Source: Simmondsia chinensis (lineage: Eukaryota; Streptophyta; Magnoliopsida; Caryophyllales; Simmondsiaceae). From it: 64,000 nucleotides of DNA. Below are positions 1,857-60,528 of this stretch, in pieces. Both the position numbers and the translations under genes were made by a program. Location of the stretch: contig JAGTTD010000013.1 in the NCBI GenBank assembly GCA_018398585.1, positions 7,164,492-7,228,491 of the forward strand, read 5' to 3'. The notes beneath the pieces are model-generated. The model saw only the letters and a list, made by a program, of their open reading frames with translations, had not been told where the DNA came from and did not search any database. How positions within the stretch are numbered: the stretch's first letter is position 1; the number at the start of each line of letters is the position of its first letter.

Positions 1857-3105
1857 AATGGGCAAAACTGTGAGAATTGGCCCCATCAAAGCAATCCTCG
1901 ACAAAGCATGGAAACCTAAAGGAAAGCTGGAAATTCACGAAGTGGCAAATAAAACTTTCCTTTTTGTCTTTCAATACCAAAAAAGATAAGGCAAAAGTCA
2001 AAGAGGGCACCCCTTGGGCCATCAATGATGCTCATCTAGCCATCAAAGAATGGGAAGGGGACACCCCTTTCGAGGAGGTCGACTTTGCCACAATGGATTT
2101 TTGGTTCCAAGTTCATGGACTCCCACTAAGTTTGATGTCGTACAACAACGCAGTCAGAATCATCAATCTCTTTCCAAAGGTTATCAGTTTGGATATGGAT
2201 GAAGAAATTGAGATGCTTTGGTCAAAATTCATACGAATGAAAGTCGAAGTAAGTATTGAGGATACTTTGTTATGCATATTTTATCTTAAAAGAAAAGATA
2301 AGCATGATTTATGGATTCGTTTTAAGTATGAGAGGCTAGGCGATTTCTGTTATGCATGTGGCAAACTTGACCATGTTATGAAATATTGTCGTGATGAAGA
2401 AGCCCCGAAAGATGATCCGTTGTTTGATGGTTTTCTAAGAGAAAAGAGTGCTCCTCCGAAAAAGTTAGACTCGTTGCTGAAAAGGGAGACTCCCTTGATC
2501 CGAACCTCATGGAAACCGAAACTGAGACCCTTGAGAAGATCCAAAATTTTGTAGCTGAGGCTGAGAAACTCAATGTTGATTGGTCCCTGGGAACCCTTCA
2601 TGCTATCGAGTTATCCTTAGGATAATATTCGAGCACCGCAATAGGCAACACGTTGAAAGCCACTAGTAAGAGAAGGGCCTGCCCGAGTGATGATGTTGGT
2701 GTACGCAAGAGAGTAAAGGCAGCACTCAAGGAGGCCGTCTATGGGATGGTTCAAATGGATAAATTCGGCAACTAGCGAACTGATTCAAATATACTTTATG
2801 ACTCTGCCGAGGTCTTAAGTAAGTTATTTGAAGAAGAAGGCCAAACCTCCTCAATGGATACTTCCATTACTGCCATCAAGAACGGAGTCCTCGGTAAGAA
2901 TTTAGGAGTCAAAATTAGAAGCATTAAAAAAGCAGCGCAAAGAAAAGCTGAACTGGACAAAGCTAGGAAAAGGTACATCCTCCCTCTTGCTGATCGAGTA
3001 GCTTGGCCGAAACTTGCACTTGACTTGGTTCGACCACCGGCCGAGATTTCTCCATCTATGGGGCTTGCAGCGGTTGTCCCCAAACAACCGCCTCAAGATC
3101 CATGA
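1857..3105 (+). pseudogene. LINE ORF1 (DUF4283 + CCHC zinc knuckle), frameshifted
   Basis: ORF1 encodes the RNA-binding, gag-like protein of plant LINEs. It opens at 1857 with MGKTVRIGPIKAILDKAW and shifts frame near 1985 into a DUF4283 segment that includes WFQVHGLPL. A perfect CX2CX4HX4C knuckle, CYACGKLDHVMKYC, lies at about 2351-2392. A basic C-terminal part (KRRACPSDD, then RKAELDKARKRY) follows after more frame changes. The last frame ends with TGA at 3103-3105, overlapping the ORF2 start. A frameshift and internal stops (for example near 2552 and 2774) show it is not functional. Confidence 0.8.
3102..3105 (+). promoter_or_regulatory. ATGA stop/start overlap between LINE ORF1 and ORF2
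   Basis: ORF1 ends with TGA at 3103-3105 and ORF2 begins with ATG at 3102-3104. Such overlaps in other non-LTR elements allow ORF2 translation by termination-reinitiation. The geometry is directly visible; the mechanism here is inferred. Confidence 0.6.
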
Positions 3106-6100
3106 GTATTATCTGTTGGAATTGCGAAGGGCTCGAACAACCCTTGACAATTCAAGCTCTAAATGAGCTCAATTTTAAATTCAGGCCAGATATTTTATTT
3201 CTTATGGAAACAAAAAACAAAAAAAACTATGTTGATCGAATGGGGAAAAAACTTGGTTTTCACACTTCTTTTATTGTTGACCCAAGAGGTTTGTCAGGTG
3301 GCATGGCAATCTTTTGGAACAACAAAGTGTGTTTAAATGTTGTAAAATTTTCTGAGAGATTTGTGGAGGTTTTTATCTCAGATCAGGGATCCGAAAAAGA
3401 GTGAAACCACATTTTCCTTCATGGCGAGCCTAATAAAAATAGGCGAGCATCATTTTGGAGGGAGATGTCTTCAAATTTCTCCAATTTGGACCCTCCTTCC
3501 ATCTTTTCGGGTGACTTTAATTCCTTCACGTCCGCCCAGGATAAGTTAAATGGTGACCCTGTTACCACTTATCAACTATCTTGGGTTTTGGATTTTCTGG
3601 ACGATGCGGGCTTGTGTGAACTTCCGACTAAGGGATGCAAATACTCTTGGTAGAACAAACAAGATAGGGTTAGAAACATCAAGGAGAATATTGACAAAGC
3701 AGTCATCAACTATAAATGGCAACAATTGTTCCCCTTCGCCTCGGCTACGTTACTCCCGGCTGTTGGTTCCGACCACTCTCCTCTCCTCCTCCTTTTGGAA
3801 GGGGAGAAACCGAAACATAACCGGGATTTTAAGTTCGAGTCGAAATGGTTGATCGAAGATGATTGTCTTGAAATTGTAAGAAAAAACTGGAATTATGTTG
3901 GTAGAGGAGACAGGAACCATCGTTTTACGAACAAGATCCACCATTGCCGCAAAGGTCTCAAGGAGTGGAGTATTACTAGAACGAAAGAGCGTAAAAAGAG
4001 ATTTGCGTTCATTTTTAGCCGACTCACAGAGCTCCAAAGTCGATCCAATTCAGACAGTGAGAAGGAGGAAGAAATTAATCTCAACAAAGAACTTACAAGT
4101 TGGTGGGATGCAGAGGAAAGATTTTGGCACCAACGGTCTCGCATCAATTGGCTCACATTTGGAGACCAGAATTTAAAATTCTTTCATGCCACAACAATCC
4201 AAAGAAACAAAGCTAATGAGATAAGAAGACTCAAAAACAAAGATGATCAATGGATTGATGACCCCCAATAAATCAAAGCTCTGATTTCATCCCACTTCCA
4301 GCGCGTTTACTGGGCGAAAGGGACCCGAAACCAGGCTACTGTTACCGATAACATTGGTATAAGGGTTAGCCAGTTCATGAACTCCAAGCTCACCAAGCCG
4401 ATATCCCGAGCCGAGATCTGGTCGGCTGTGAAACAACTTGGCGCCCTTAAAGCTCCTGGCCCATACGGTTTTTCAGGTATTTTCTATACTTCATTTTGGG
4501 ATGTTATCTCAAACGATGCTTGTCAGGTGGTTGAAATGTTTTTCGAAAATGGGAATTTGCCTCCTGGCCTAAATAACACTAATATTGTCTTAATTCCCAA
4601 AACTAAAAACCCAAGCTCGATCCATCAATTTCGACCGATTGGTCTTTGTAATTTTTCATATAAAATTATTTCAAAAATCCTGACAAACCATCTTCAACCC
4701 TTTATGAATCATCTCATTTCCCCACAACAATCCGCTTTTATTAAAGGAAGACAAATTCAAAACAATATTATAGCGGCTCATGAGGATTTCCACGCTCTTA
4801 AAAAAAAAAAAGAAAGGGAAGGAAAAATTTTATGGCCCTAAAAATTGATCTTACCAAAGCTTACGACCAAGTGGAGTGGGTTTCCTCCAAAAGGTTTTAA
4901 AAAAAATGGGTTTTTGTGATTTATTTGTGGGTTGGATGATGGAATGTGTCACCAAGGTCAGAATTAGTCCGGTCGTTAATGGGGAGAGGCTCCAACGGTT
5001 CGAGATTTCTAGAGGGCTTAGACAGGGAGATCCCCTTTCCCCTTTTCTATTCCTCTTTGTTATGGATGCCTTGTCCAATCTTATTAACAAAGGGGAGAGA
5101 AGCAGGGAATTGAATGGTTTTCATATTAAGTCCACATGTCCTTCTCTGATTCACCTGTTTTTCGCTGATGATTGCGTTTTCTTCTTTCAAGCTTCCACTA
5201 GAGCGTGTAGAAACGTTATGAAAAGTCTTAGACTCTTTTGTGATGCTTCGGTCAAGAGGTCAACCTCCAAAAATCTCATGTTTTCTTTTTTTCTTTCACC
5301 CCTTCACATGTGAAGGAGGAACGCCTCGAGATTTTGGGGGTGACTCTCTTAAATGGGCAGGACAGGTACCTTGGATCTCAAATCTTGTGGGGAAGATAAA
5401 AAAAAACCGTCCTTAGTTTTCTATTTGATAAGATCAAAGGGAAAATGCAAGGTTGAAAATCTAAACTCCTCTCCCATGTGGGAAGAGAGGTCCTCCTCAA
5501 GTCGGTCGTGTTGGCTATCTCTAAATTTGTTACGTCATGTTTTAAAATTTTGATCACTTTCTCCAAAAAAATTAATAGTAGTCTCGCTCGTTTCTGGTGG
5601 AGGGGTGGGTCTTATGAGAATAAGGGCATTCATTGGAAGGGTTGGAACTTCATTTCTAAACCAAAGCAGGTTAGAGGCCTCGGCTTTTGTGATATGTGTG
5701 GGGTTAATATTGCTCTTATCGCAAAACAAGTTTGGAGAGCCATCCAAAACCCTAACACTTTTTCGGTTAAAATCCTCATAGGGGTGTACTTTAATGATGG
5801 TTCGATCCTTAATGCTCGCTTGGGTTACAACCCTCTTGGGGTTGGAGAAACTTCATTGAGGGACGGGATTTCATCATTAAAGGTCTCCGTTGGAATGTTA
5901 ATAGTGGAAAAAATATTGATATTTGGAAAGACAAGTGGGTCCCTGACCTCCCTTCCTTCTCAGTTGGGAGTTCTCCATATGATCACTCAATTTCTAAGGT
6001 TTCCGACCTCATTATCCCGGGTCTAAGAAGATGGAATCTCCCCCTCATCTCACATTTGTTCTCCCAAGAGGTGTCAAAGGCAATTTCGCATATCCCGATC

Positions 6101-7241
6101 GGCAACCCATATCGGGATGACGAGTTGATTTGGCACTTTACCAAAACCGGAGTCTATTCCGTGAAATCCAGGTACCGACTGTGGAGCTTTTCGGACAGCC
6201 CTATTTCTGAAGGATGGGCCTCTACCAGCTCCCCTTTTGTCTCGACTCATGGTTTACATGTTCTTTGGTCCCTCAATGCTACTCCAAAAATCAAACACTT
6301 CCTTTGGAGAGCTCTCATGAACGCCTTAGCTCCACTGAGAACTTATGGAAGATGAAACTCAGACATAATCCTTTTTGTCCTCGATGTGATGGGGTCATTG
6401 AAACGGTGGAACATTTATTCTTCTTTTGTCCCTAGGCTAGAGCAACATGGTTCGCATCTTCGTTGGTGTTCAAACCAAATATTGAAGGCTTCAATAGCTT
6501 CCATGTTTGGTGGGACTCCATTTGTTCTAACCCGACATTCTCTCGTCATGATATTTTCAGAATTATGCTTCTTTGTTGGGAAATTTGGAAGAGTAGATGT
6601 GATTTTGTTTTCAAACATGTGTCCCCACATCCCAGGTCCTCCGCACTCAAAGCCGACTCAGCTGCAATGGAGTTCTCGAGCCTGAATTCAGCTCCCCCCA
6701 CCCCCCCTCGCTCCCCCTCGGCTGGTACAGGTCCTACTGCAACCGATTGGACCCCTCCCCCTTTGGATTGGATCAAAATCAACTCGGATGCTGCTTTCTC
6801 CACCCTCTCGTGTTCGGCCACTGCCATTGTTGCCCGCGATCACCAAGGCAATCTCGTGGGAGGTTGGTGTGGTTCCTTCAATGCAAAGTCTCCTCTTATT
6901 GCCGAAGCCCTGACTATTAGAGATGCAGTCTCTGTAGTGGATTCTCGAGGTTGGAAGAATGTTATTATCGAGTCGGATTGTAAACAAGCTATAGATTTTA
7001 TCTATCATGTCGCGTCCCCTGCATGGGAATGTAGTGCTGTTATTACTAATATTAGGTTATTATTGTCGCCTAGTTCTTTTAGCAATGGTCATTTTGTTGG
7101 GCCCCTCGATCTTGTAATCGGGTAGCTCATTTTGTGGCTTCGTTACATTTAGGTCGTAGATGTACCCATGATTGGTGGCATGTTTGCCCACCTTCGGTTG
7201 TTTCCCTTGTAAACTCGGATCGTTTAGTTATGAATGTCTAG
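3102..7241 (+). pseudogene. LINE ORF2: endonuclease, reverse transcriptase, zf-RVT, RNase H
   Basis: The start at 3102 gives MSIICWNCEGLEQPLTIQAL, the usual opening of plant LINE AP-type endonucleases; SGDFNSF (3510-3530) and GSDHSPLLL (3760-3790) are later endonuclease motifs. The RT part has LKAPGPYGFSG and IGLCNFSYKIISKIL, then RQGDPLSPFLF (about 5019-5051) and the catalytic box FFADD (5159-5173). A zf-RVT segment (CPRCDG...EHLFFFCP) precedes an RNase H domain with KINSDAAF and ESDCKQAIDF (about 6776-7000). The C-terminus, in another frame, has CNRVAHFVAS and ends at TAG 7239-7241. At least six frame changes and stops disable it. Confidence 0.88.
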
Positions 7242-18375: not shown

Positions 18376-19263
18376 CTAAACAACTTCCCTATCATTAACA
18401 TGCTCAGTAGGAGGTAGCACTAGATCTAAGTTGACTCTAACACCTGAAGAAGACTCTGACTGCTTTGTTTTCTCACAATCTTTAATGGTTTCGTTTACAA
18501 AGAAAACAATATCTCTTCTTCTGATTACGTTTCTGTCAACTGGATCCCATAATATGAACCCAAACTCATCTTCTAAGTACCTTAGGAAAATGCACTGCTT
18601 CGTCCTACTGTCAAGCTTGGATCTCTCATCTCTAGGTATATGCATGGACGCTTTGCACCCAAAATCTCTCAAACATCTGTATGAAACATCATTCCCTATC
18701 CACACTATTTGAGGAACATCACCTTCAAGTAGAACTGAAGGAGAAAGGTTAATCAGGTACACAACAGTCATCACTGCCTCTGCCCAAAAGGACTTTGGCA
18801 GCTTTGCATGAGAGAGCATGCAACGAATCCTCTCTTTAATTGTTCTGTTCATTCTCTCTGCAGCTCCATTCAACTGAGGAGTCTTTCAAACTGTTTTATG
18901 AAGCTTGATTCCACTCTTTTAGCAATATTTATCAAACGGACTCCTGTACTCTCCACTATCGTCTGCTCTAATACACTTCAGCTTTCTACCAATTTCCCTT
19001 TCAACTCCGGCCTAGAACTGCTTGAATATTTCTAAAACCCGGTCTTTGCTTTTCAACACAAAAACCAACACTTTTCTTGAATGGTCATCAATAAAGGTAA
19101 CAGAATAATATGCACCACCATGTGATCTTTTCTTCATAAAGCAAACATCAGTATGAACAAGATCTAACACATTCTTTCTTCTAGATGGGGATAAAGTATG
19201 AAATGCGGCTATATATTGCTTTCTAACTTTTACCTCTCCTTTGCATAGCTTCGCTTGCATCAC
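18376..19263 (-). pseudogene. Copia integrase
   Basis: Two frames carry the core: 19012-19263 has VTFIDDHSRKVLVFVLKSKD, including a catalytic Asp, and 18376-18873 has MNGAAERMNRTIKERIRCML, which includes the catalytic Glu, followed by the conserved FWAEAVMTVVYLIN. A frameshift separates them. Confidence 0.88.
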
Positions 19264-29200: not shown

Positions 29201-30429
29201 CAACAACAACAACAATAACAGTCTCAGTGCCTCAAGGGCTCCCTCATAAGCAGGGTTTGGGGGGTAGATGCACACAGCCTTTCCCCTTCAGGGTGCTACT
29301 CGGAAGAGAGGCTGTTTCCGATGACCCCCAACCTGAGAAGCATGTCGTCATGGAAGCAAGTCAGCCTGTCAGCATAGAGCAACAAAGCATAAGAGCAGGA
29401 TATAGCACAAAGCAAGCACCACGAAGCCAAATTCAAAAATTCATTAGAAGGCAGCTACAAGCGGATAAAAGGCAAGTAAACAGACAAGCAAGTAAGTGCG
29501 CCACAGGAGGTCTAAAATGCATAGTCACACTAGTGTTAGCTATAATATGCAGCACTCCTCTAAGCCACTACATCGGTTACCCCTATGCTAAGCCTCTAGT
29601 GAGCGCTATTTAAGGCCATCTCCTCCCGTAGGTTTAGGAGGGTGAGGTCTTGTCGGATCGTTTTCATCCATCTCTTCTTTGGCCTGCCTCTCCCTCTCCT
29701 TCCTAGAGTAGTATGGAGCTGTTCACGTCTTCTGATTGGAGCAGTAGTCGGCCTCCTCCTAACATATCCAAACCACCTCAAACTATGCTTCCTTAATTTA
29801 TCCTCGATCAAGGCTATGCCCAATTTGCCTCTTATGACGTCGTTCTTGATCCTATCCTTCCATGTGTGTCCGCACATCTATTACAGCATCCTCATCTCCG
29901 CCACCTTCAACTTCTGTGTATGATGTTGTTTCATTGGCCGACACTCCACCCTATACGTCATAGCCAGTCTCACTATTGTCTCATAGTATTTTCCTTTTAC
30001 CACTAGCGAGAACTTTCGATTGCAAAGTACCGCGGAAGCCATCTTCCGTTTCTGCAAGCCTACTTTAATCCGGTTATTGACCTCCTCGTCAACTTCGCTA
30101 TTCTGTTGTACTATGGAATCCAAGTATCTGAAACTCTCATTTCTCTGTATGGTCTCAGCACCTATCTTGACTTCTTCTGTGCTAGGCGCGTTGGAGGAAC
30201 CAAACTTGAGTTCCATGTGCTCAATGTTGGATCTACTGATTCGTAAGCCCTTCGATTCCAATGCCCTTCTCCACATTTTCAGCTTTTCATTTATCTCTAT
30301 TCTAGATTCTCCCACCAAAACTATGCCATCTGCAAAAAACATGCACTAAGGCACATCACCTTGGATATGCCTAGTAAGCTCATTCATAGCTAGAATGGAC
30401 AGAAAGGGGCTCAAGGCAGATTCTTTAGT
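29201..30429 (-). mobile_element. 5'-truncated RTE-type LINE with (TTG)n tail
   Basis: On the minus strand it begins inside the RT domain (SALSPFLSILAMNELTR, about 30370-30426), continues through RT to the C-terminal block (29596-29877), then a 3' UTR that ends GTTATTGTTGTTGTTGTTG (29201-29219). Only the last ~1.2 kb is present. A hAT-like element begins directly beyond its 5' end, at 30438. The last ~115 bp match the 3' body of the 5S-headed SINE at 34841-35082. Confidence 0.85.
29596..30426 (-). pseudogene. RTE reverse transcriptase C-terminal half
   Basis: Carries MFFADGIVLVGES, where the catalytic pair FADD has become FADG, and GLRISRSNIEHMELKF. Beyond a break near 29880 the frame has MCGHTWKDRIKNDVIRGKLG and LRWFGYVRRRP with GRGRPKKRWM. 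All are hallmarks of plant RTE elements. A stop precedes MFFADG. The mutated catalytic Asp and the truncation make it inactive. Confidence 0.88.
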
Positions 30430-34540: not shown

Positions 34541-34840
34541 AGATTGACTTTTTTTTGCAAAATGGCACAATTATAAAAAAAATATTTAGAAAATTGGCAT
34601 CTTTTTGAAAATATTTAGCAAAATAGCACACTTTACTATTTATCACCCGTTGCACGCCATCTGAAAAGGATTACAATGACAAGCTACCAGTTGCACGGCG
34701 TCTTAGATGTCGTGCAATGGGTGTCACCCTCACCCCTCACACGCTGCGCAATGGGAATAATATGAATTTAAATTTTGATATTACATAAGCTAGAATTTCA
34801 CTTTAGATTAATTTTAATATATCATACAAACATATAATAT

Positions 34841-35082
34841 ATCATACCAAAGAGGGCACCAACACGCGGTCACCGGATCCCATTAGAACTTCCAAGTTAA
34901 GCGTGCTTGGGTGAGAGTAGTACCAGGATGGGTGACCTCCTGGGAAGTCCTCTCCCTCTGGTTGGGTGCATAGGGAAACAGCCTCTCTTCAGGTTAATAC
35001 CCTGAAGGGAGAAGGCTGCGTACATCAGCGCCCCCCAGATCCTGCGTAGGCGGGAGCCCTTGAGACACTGGGTATGTTCCTC
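34841..35082 (+). mobile_element. 5S rRNA-headed SINE with 18-bp TSD
   Basis: The insert lies between CATACAAACATATAATAT at 34823-34840 and the same at 35083-35100, a perfect 18-bp duplication. The matching position in the other arm of the inverted repeat (about 38600) is empty. The 5' part (to about 34955) is 5S rRNA-like. The 3' part (GGAAACAGCCTCTCTTCAGG to CACTGGGTATGTTCC) matches the 3' end of the RTE LINE at 29201-29345. Head plus LINE-like tail plus TSD is the SINE plan, with 5S instead of tRNA. The TTG tail has nearly vanished. Confidence 0.85.
34862..34953 (+). other. 5S rRNA-derived pol III promoter head
   Basis: From CACCGGATCCCATTAGAACT to CTCCTGGGAAGTCCTC it follows plant 5S rRNA closely. 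Box A AGTTAAGCGTGCTTGGG, the intermediate element region GAGAGTAGTAC and box C AGGATGGGTGACCTCCTGGG are all present. The first ~25 nt of 5S are disrupted by a ~14-nt insertion, and the 3' strand of helix I is missing, so this is not a ribosomal gene. Confidence 0.88.
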
Positions 35083-35124
35083 CATACAAACATATAATAT
35101 AATAGTGTTTCTAATAATTTATTA

Positions 35125-35895
35125 GAGTCGGTTCTCAAAATAATGCTGAAAAATAAAAAAATAAAAAAATAATGCCAAAAAATAAATATTTACCAATCTA
35201 CTGTTAAACCGCGTTTAGAAAACGCGGTTCACTCCAAAAATAATCGAATTACGAGAAAAATATTTTTTTATAAAACGCGTCTTAAAGACGCGTTTCATAT
35301 GAAACTAAACCGCGTCTTAAAGACGCGGTTCACGTAATTGTAAAGGACGGGTCTTGAAGTCAAGGACGCCCACGCTCGAAACGAATTCAAAATAAAATGG
35401 ATGCGAATGACTATAAATGAAGGGTCACACGTGGGTTCTGTAAGAGAAAATATCATAATGTATTGACATGCAAGAGGAAAAAGGAGCACGAGGCTCGGCT
35501 AGCAGCTAGTAGCAGTGAAATATATGACTGTAATATTTACTTATGTTTCATTTTTTTTGAACATTAATTTATGTTTTATTTATATTATTTTTTATATAGT
35601 AGTTCGTTATTTATATATATCTATGAGTTTGTTATTTATATTGTTATTTATAATAAAAACCGCAGCATTATAAAAGCGGTTTATATAAGAGTGAACCGCG
35701 TTTAGTAAACACGGTTTATTCTTTACATATTCTTTCGTTTTTGATGCGGTTATTTTTAGATATAACCGCGTTTTTTGAACGCGGTTTAATATAACCGCGC
35801 TTATAAAACGCGGTTCAACAGTAGATTCGTAAATATTTATTTTTTAGCTTTATTTTTTTTAATTTTTTTTTCATCATTATTTTGGGAACCGACTC
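35125..35895. mobile_element. Mutator-type MITE (771 bp), perfect 9-bp TSD, hairpin-rich interior
   Basis: The left end GAGTCGGTTCTCAAAATAAT and the complement of the right end GAGTCGGTTCCCAAAATAAT start long inverted repeats that reach ACTGTT(G)AACCGCG. AATTTATTA flanks both sides (35116-35124, 35896-35904). The interior has eight short palindromes built from AACCGCG...CGCGGTT. No transposase is present. The other arm of the host inverted repeat lacks it. Confidence 0.93.
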
Positions 35896-37724: not shown

Positions 37725-37938
37725 AGTAGATTGAAATATTTCATATAAACATATATCATAATAATTTTTCTAATAATATATTATTTAGTATATATAAACA
37801 AATATATTCTATAATATGTTATTCCATATATTAAATTTACAATATTTATAAAACCAATATAATCAAATCACTAGAATAAAAGTTCTCCATAAATGAACAT
37901 GACATCAAAATATAAAAACAATACTAGAACTAATAATT

Positions 37939-60334: not shown

Positions 60335-60528
60335 TTTAATTATTGGCCCCTCGACTGGGTCCTCAGAAACAGTCTCTCGTTTGGGTCTCACCCTGATGGG
60401 GTAAGACTGCGTACACCCTACCCCTCTCAGACCTCGCACAAGTGGGAGTCCTTGAGGCACTGGGTATGTTGTTATTGCCCTCTTGACCCTGCTTAGGTAG
60501 GAGCCCTTGGGGCATTGGCTATGTTGAG
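60335..60528 (+). mobile_element. SINE with duplicated 3' end, 13-bp TSD
   Basis: AGATTATAGTCTT flanks both ends (60322-60334, 60529-60541). The body has AGAAACAGTCTCTCGTTTGG, AAGACTGCGTACACCCTACC and GAGGCACTGGGTATGTTGTT, the same tail family as 34956-35082. A second, differently diverged 3' unit follows at once (CCTGCTTAGGTAGGAGCCC to GGCATTGGCTATGTTGAG). The 5' head is short and shows neither clear tRNA boxes nor 5S sequence. Confidence 0.88.

Follow-up and report, generated by a model that had tools for sequence, protein, structure and literature searches.

SINEs that join a 5S rRNA head to the tail of an RTE-type LINE are known from animals: Ped-1 of the springhare (Pedetes capensis) carries a 5S head and a tail from Bov-B, a LINE of the RTE clade (PMC3747384, Table 1), and RTE elements have been reported to form SINEs with tRNA or 5S rRNA (Kojima 2018, as cited in PMC13174262). 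In plants, a 2022 review states in the excerpt available that SINEs derive from tRNAs (PMC9033089), in agreement with the earlier sequence-only reading of this locus, which held that most plant SINEs have tRNA heads; the same excerpt mentions an Angio-domain SINE superfamily, whose criterion is a conserved 37-bp 3' Angio-domain. The known plant retroelement with a 5S sequence, Cassandra, is described in excerpts of PMC10853983 and PMC10886601 as an LTR element; that reading had it as a TRIM and not a SINE. The literature matches listed for 5S-derived SINEs, in excerpt form, concerned insects, fish, amniotes, Aspergillus and ribosome evolution, and no plants; excerpts of three plant papers matched for SINE and 5S rRNA (PMC11709435, PMC8312256 and PMC3742203) held nothing relevant.

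Here we describe an element at 34842-35082 of the window (the whole stretch analysed, 64,000 nucleotides from jojoba, Simmondsia chinensis), and show that it is a member of a real 5S-headed SINE family with a LINE tail. The full explanation that we propose, namely a 5S-headed SINE family transcribed by RNA polymerase III, mobilised by an RTE-type LINE and born by a template jump, is in our judgement highly probable as a whole. That this real family already bears a name, in RepBase or other literature, for instance as a plant SINE3, is quite possible, though we hold it to be the lesser chance. Nine uncharacterised potato repeat families, left unclassed, match non-coding RNAs including 5S rRNA (excerpt of PMC4524691), which speaks for such a precedent; against it stand the tRNA origin given for plant SINEs in the review cited above and the absence of a plant 5S-headed SINE among the matches listed from the freely accessible literature.

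The window copy and its 5S rRNA-derived head

The insert is bounded by a perfect 19-bp target site duplication (TSD), CATACAAACATATAATATA, with its left copy at 34823-34841 and its right copy at 35083-35101 (both on the forward strand and 100% identical), which places the insert at 34842-35082. The flanks, joined without the insert, aligned unbroken over the insertion point to a related host repeat at 38936-38558 (minus strand; 74% identity over 382 columns), which has a single copy of the TSD sequence and is identical over 47 nt across the site. At 37735-37783 a further related stretch, which is shorter (49 nt, 86%), likewise lacks the insert. The inverted repeat adjoining the SINE also contains dense palindromic units (AACCGCGTTT...AAACGCGGTT) at 35151-35871; stretches resembling them occur in two other loci (L065 and L067), which suggests a foldback or MITE-like family.

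The Rfam model of 5S rRNA (RF00001) matched 34846-34963 with 69.2 bits (gathering score 38) over model positions 1-120, and at gathering score the whole window gave no other Rfam match. We delimit the 5S rRNA-derived head as 34846-34955 (forward strand), with the Rfam match extending to 34963. The head contains, all intact and on the forward strand, an A-box-like stretch AAGTTAAGCGTGCTTGG at 34894-34910, an intermediate-element-like stretch GAGAGTAGTA at 34913-34922 and a C-box AGGATGGGTG at 34925-34934. The first two were placed according to what we take to be the plant 5S layout. The C-box string is the canonical form according to an excerpt of PMC10853983. A stem in place of 5S helix I (GAGGG with CCCTC) was partial in the Rfam alignment and absent from single-sequence folds, and we make no claim for it.

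Much of this had been proposed from the letters of the window. The empty site in the related repeat and the 5S head with box A, intermediate element and box C were borne out; the TSD proved perfect as described, its length being 19 bp and not 18 bp.

Copies across the genome, abundance and probable transcription

In a genome search covering 831 Mb in 35 contigs, the best 40 of 5608 first-look candidates were scored. All 40 spanned the head-tail junction, and they lay on 20 of the 35 contigs; being the candidates most similar to the window copy, they are biased towards its subfamily. They share a 232-nt core without gaps and differ from their consensus by 0.9-4.7% (4.3% for the window copy). 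Relative to this consensus the window copy has four extra 5' bases, TCAT (34842-34845, forward strand), upstream of the family start, and its 3' end reads CCTC (35079-35082, forward strand), where 25 of the 40 copies have CC followed by at least three T. TGTT followed by CC was present in 36/40 copies and poly(A) in one, L014.

Exact duplications of at least 10 nt near the ends were found for 26 of the 40 own flank pairs, compared with 6 of 1560 mismatched pairs, in which the left flank of one copy was set against the right flank of another. With one mismatch allowed, a TSD was recognised in 29 copies and none in the other 11. TSD lengths vary by copy, mostly within 10-26 nt where they reach 10 nt, and the TSDs found in other copies enclose head and tail together; no second TSD was found at the head-tail junction. 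The copies are thus short, dispersed and numerous, with both ends shared and TSDs that differ from copy to copy, as is characteristic of SINEs. The sequence-only reading had allowed for a family or a one-off chimera, and had named dozens of junction-sharing copies with their own TSDs as the mark of the former and a second TSD at the junction as the mark of two insertions. The genome holds such copies, so that the family stands and the one-off falls, and nothing was seen of two insertions; insertion of the target-primed type is likewise supported.

Two copies deviate from the rest. L014 (G000:C9:24472005-24473438), a young copy 0.9% from the consensus and with a 19-bp TSD, has its poly(A) end in place of T and may owe its insertion to a different machinery. 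L040 (G000:C18:4068443-4069870) has an altered 5' end and an exact flanking duplication of 53 nt, far above the length of the other TSDs.

A head derived from 5S rRNA that includes the internal promoter strings, the feature by which SINE3 is recognised, is common to the family. The A-box-like string was exact in 33/40 copies (39/40 with at most one mismatch), the intermediate-element-like string in 36/40 (39/40) and the C-box in 30/40 (40/40). The tRNA A/B-box pattern was matched by 0/40 copies, which rules out a tRNA-derived plant SINE (TS, Au and others). No internal TTTT was present in 38/40 copies, and 28/40 had TTTT no more than 40 nt away from the 3' end, compared with 258 of 800 flank windows; at least four T directly followed TGTTCC in 18/40 copies, and the window copy's own end has no TTTT. 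Since the promoter strings are kept (exact in 30-36 of 40 copies), internal TTTT is rare and TTTT lies near the 3' end, the family is probably transcribed by RNA polymerase III, which would start from the 5S internal promoter (A-box, intermediate element and C-box) and stop at the T run near the 3' end.

For an estimate of abundance we used a random sample of 200 kb, drawn from 20 contigs as a single 10-kb stretch per contig; these contigs are those that bear the 40 matches (662 of the 831 Mb), and the sample is to that extent not fully free. It contained 11 head-plus-tail copies and one odd chimera. The copies occupy 2,558 of 200,000 bases, and their density of 55 per Mb corresponds to approximately 46,000 copies genome-wide (Poisson 95% approximately 23,000-82,000). 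By sampling, the family is therefore tens of thousands of copies in size. An exact duplication of at least 9 nt was present at the ends of 6/11 random copies and none at the ends of 5/11. Rfam at gathering score recovered 9/11 of them and no other RNA family in the 200-kb sample. The distances of the random copies to the young consensus ranged from 0.087 to 0.329 (median 0.182). If 7e-9 substitutions per site and year are assumed, they translate into roughly 12-47 million years, which is an overestimate for the older subfamilies, because their ancestor differed from the young consensus.

The LINE-derived tail and the proposed mobilisation

The tail had been likened to the 3' end of an RTE LINE, and a BLASTN comparison with the window agreed on the LINE 3' end: element bases 115-237 matched 29337-29217 (minus strand; 78%, E 1e-21). 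The LINE-derived, RTE-type tail of the window copy thus spans 34956-35078 (forward strand), and the family and its partner LINE have a 3' end in common, their tail consensus sequences being 92% identical over 106 columns. The matching LINE in the window, one of an abundant kind, is a decayed relic at 29217-30342 (minus strand) that ends in TTG repeats, with a reverse-transcriptase-like fragment upstream of the matched 3' end. The relic's own coding fragment had no Pfam match. Relatives of this fragment were detected by tblastn in L048, L054, L056, L057 and L065, upstream of such tails; the L065 fragment matched RVT_1 above the curated cut-off and that of L054 below it. GTTGTTG stood at the end of 17/20 tail-only matches in the random sample, compared with 0/40 and 0/11 SINE copies. 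According to Table 3 of PMC3747384, TTG-type repeat ends occur in 7/7 plant RTE families and 0/233 L1 families. The TTG end of the partner LINE therefore fits the plant RTE families of that table and not L1, and the partner likely belongs to the RTE clade.

The tail-only matches could themselves be SINEs with another head. ARAGORN detected no tRNA in any of 26 such matches (the 20 of the sample and those of the window), and 20/26 end in GTTGTTG; on both grounds they are mostly read as 5'-truncated LINEs. There are two exceptions: L051 6081 resembles, by eye, a truncated SINE, and L048 747 is part of the odd 5S/LINE chimera. Elsewhere in the window two LINE tail ends lie nearly back to back (60366-60470 and 60477-60525). 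Folding of both tail sets predicted a hairpin in SINE and LINE tails alike (34979-35018, forward strand, in the window copy); changes on both sides that preserve pairing were seen in 4/11 pairs among 16 LINE tails and in 1/11 among 15 SINE tails, and the covariation terms are small (-0.51 and -0.57).

Plant RTE LINEs and their associated SINEs show a split pattern, with TSDs starting with T and an upstream T stretch; in legumes the SINEs end in T tracts and their LINEs in (GTT)n, and the T stretch lies approximately 10 nt upstream of the TSD (excerpts of PMC13295347). Of the 29 jojoba sites with a TSD, 23 have T at position -10 relative to the start of the TSD, against a background of 0.34 (p 8e-7, uncorrected, with 25 positions viewed). 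At least three T fall within -14..-7 in 17/29 sites (background 0.20) and at least four in only 7/29 (background 0.08); the TSD starts with T in 17/29. The family thus has the T stretch approximately 10 nt upstream of the TSD that is reported for RTE elements, and the pattern at -10 fits it, incompletely as regards the T start and long T stretches. In the mechanism that we propose, the reverse transcriptase of an RTE-type LINE would recognise the shared 3' region of the SINE RNA, which would then be inserted by target-primed reverse transcription.

Mobilisation of the same 5S-headed family mainly by plant L1 LINEs is improbable. Such a LINE is at hand, since the window contains a broken L1-like element at 1877-7125 (DUF4283 and zf-CCHC_4 at 1877-2554, RVT_1 at 4377-4841, RVT_3 at 6463-7125), and the poly(A) end of L014 would fit L1 mobilisation. 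LINEs with DUF4283 and zf-CCHC_4 domains are typical of plants. However, the SINE tail has no match on the strand of this LINE within 1877-7125, and CC after TGTT in 36/40 copies, poly(A) in a single one and the T at -10 all argue against L1. Also in the window, a retroviral polymerase SH3-like domain fragment at 18376-18873 (minus strand) is probably a Copia-type element.

The remaining explanations carry a negligible chance each. A single chimeric insertion made by one template switch and never amplified has precedents in the known 5S/LINE-1 chimeras (excerpt of PMC13174262) and in the odd 5S/LINE chimera with TTG repeats at L048 711-940, but it is refuted by 40 separate junction-bearing copies, 26 of them with their own TSD of at least 10 nt, and by 11 more in the random 200-kb sample. 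A 5S pseudogene that came to lie next to a 5'-truncated LINE through two separate insertions might be expected where headless LINE tails are so common (20 tail-only matches in the 200-kb sample), but this reading is refuted too: head and tail lie together between the TSDs, copy after copy has the same junction, and neither half is present at the empty site. A Cassandra-type TRIM or solo LTR, which would likewise carry a 5S promoter, can be set aside: the comparison with the window revealed no direct repeat inside the element, only an inverted one, and hence no trace of Cassandra's LTRs, the TSDs are variable and the 3' half is LINE, while the 5S core shared by Cassandra is approximately 70 bp, though above 100 nt in some species.

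Proposed origin of the fusion and comparison with known systems

The best-matching copies belong mainly to a young subfamily, and the random sample also holds older ones. In 4/11 random copies the head extends through TGTTGC and five further bases (such as ACCCC), presumably the 3' end of plant 5S rRNA, and joins the LINE at TCAGG or TCAAGG. Two Rfam-scored copies among these four long-headed ones (L061 6805 and L054 5401) allowed a closer comparison, and in both the last position of the 5S model falls on the base at which the LINE match begins. In the other 7/11 random copies 8 nt are missing at the presumed 5S 3' end. Given the presumably full 5S end in the older copies, we read the junction of the window copy near 34955 as derived through the 8-nt loss; copies share this junction, as the sequence-only reading had required of a family, and it does not appear to be the original point of fusion.

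The extreme 3' ends vary in parallel. The LINE ends in TTG repeats, TGTTGCT or variants of it occur in the four older and four other random copies, and TGTTCC occurs in 3/11 random copies and 36/40 best matches. These ends suggest a series from TTG repeats through TGTTGCT to TGTTCC, the order of which is a proposal, since the older copies are so few. A join at the very 3' terminus of 5S rRNA is the trace expected when a reverse transcriptase jumps from LINE RNA to 5S rRNA, and the copies thus suggest, as far as their sequences go, a SINE birth by template jumping. A reverse transcriptase copying the LINE 3' end would have switched to 5S rRNA at its 3' terminus, and loss of the 8 nt, together with a replacement of the terminal TTG repeats by CC plus T, would later have given the younger subfamily that includes the window copy. 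The odd chimera at L048 711-940 (minus strand) has a 5S head that is repeated in part, joins it to the LINE at a different junction and ends in TTG repeats; its flanks share 7 nt exactly (11/13 by eye), and it is perhaps an independent fusion.

Whether flowering plants hold an undescribed class of 5S-headed, RTE-tailed SINEs, present here in tens of thousands of copies and with a graded series from birth to streamlining, seems to us evenly balanced. If they do, SINE birth and streamlining could be read from one genome, and the 5S promoter would have been taken over by LINE machinery in plants just as it was in animals, with a partner of the same type. With the older copies retained in jojoba, sequence comparison can put the template-jump model of SINE birth to the test. 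It should be noted that SINE-Finder seeks tRNA boxes and that AnnoSINE filters out candidates that are near-identical to RNAs in Rfam (excerpt of PMC8825457); the need for tRNA boxes and the Rfam filter would create a blind spot for 5S-headed SINEs in other plants, and a detection bias against them is plausible.

Among the systems compared, the chimeric 5S/LINE-1 insertions likewise fuse 5S rRNA to a LINE in one insertion, but their 5S part is typically truncated and antisense, and none of the 27 insertions is an amplified family in the excerpt of PMC13174262. The Cassandra TRIM is likewise a plant retroelement using a 5S promoter, whereas it is an LTR element with the 5S sequence within its LTRs, and the excerpts of PMC10853983 and PMC10886601 mention no LINE tail. 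Tobacco TS and the T-ended legume SINEs share their 3' end with an RTE LINE, as the jojoba family does, but where the jojoba family has a 5S head, TS has a region related to tRNA that includes A and B boxes (excerpt of PMC3747384). SINE3 and other 5S-headed DeuSINEs (zebrafish SINE3, AmnSINE1) also have a 5S rRNA head, and differ in their tails, which are CR1-type or RSg-1 among the rows listed in PMC3747384, in contrast to the RTE-type tail found here. The jojoba family is thus of a type already known, found in a lineage for which the literature matches listed, in excerpt form, hold no description. Ped-1, likened here by its published description, is an animal element with the same architecture as the SINE of the jojoba window; the design of a 5S head on an RTE tail is therefore not new, and Ped-1 and the plant family would have arrived at it independently.
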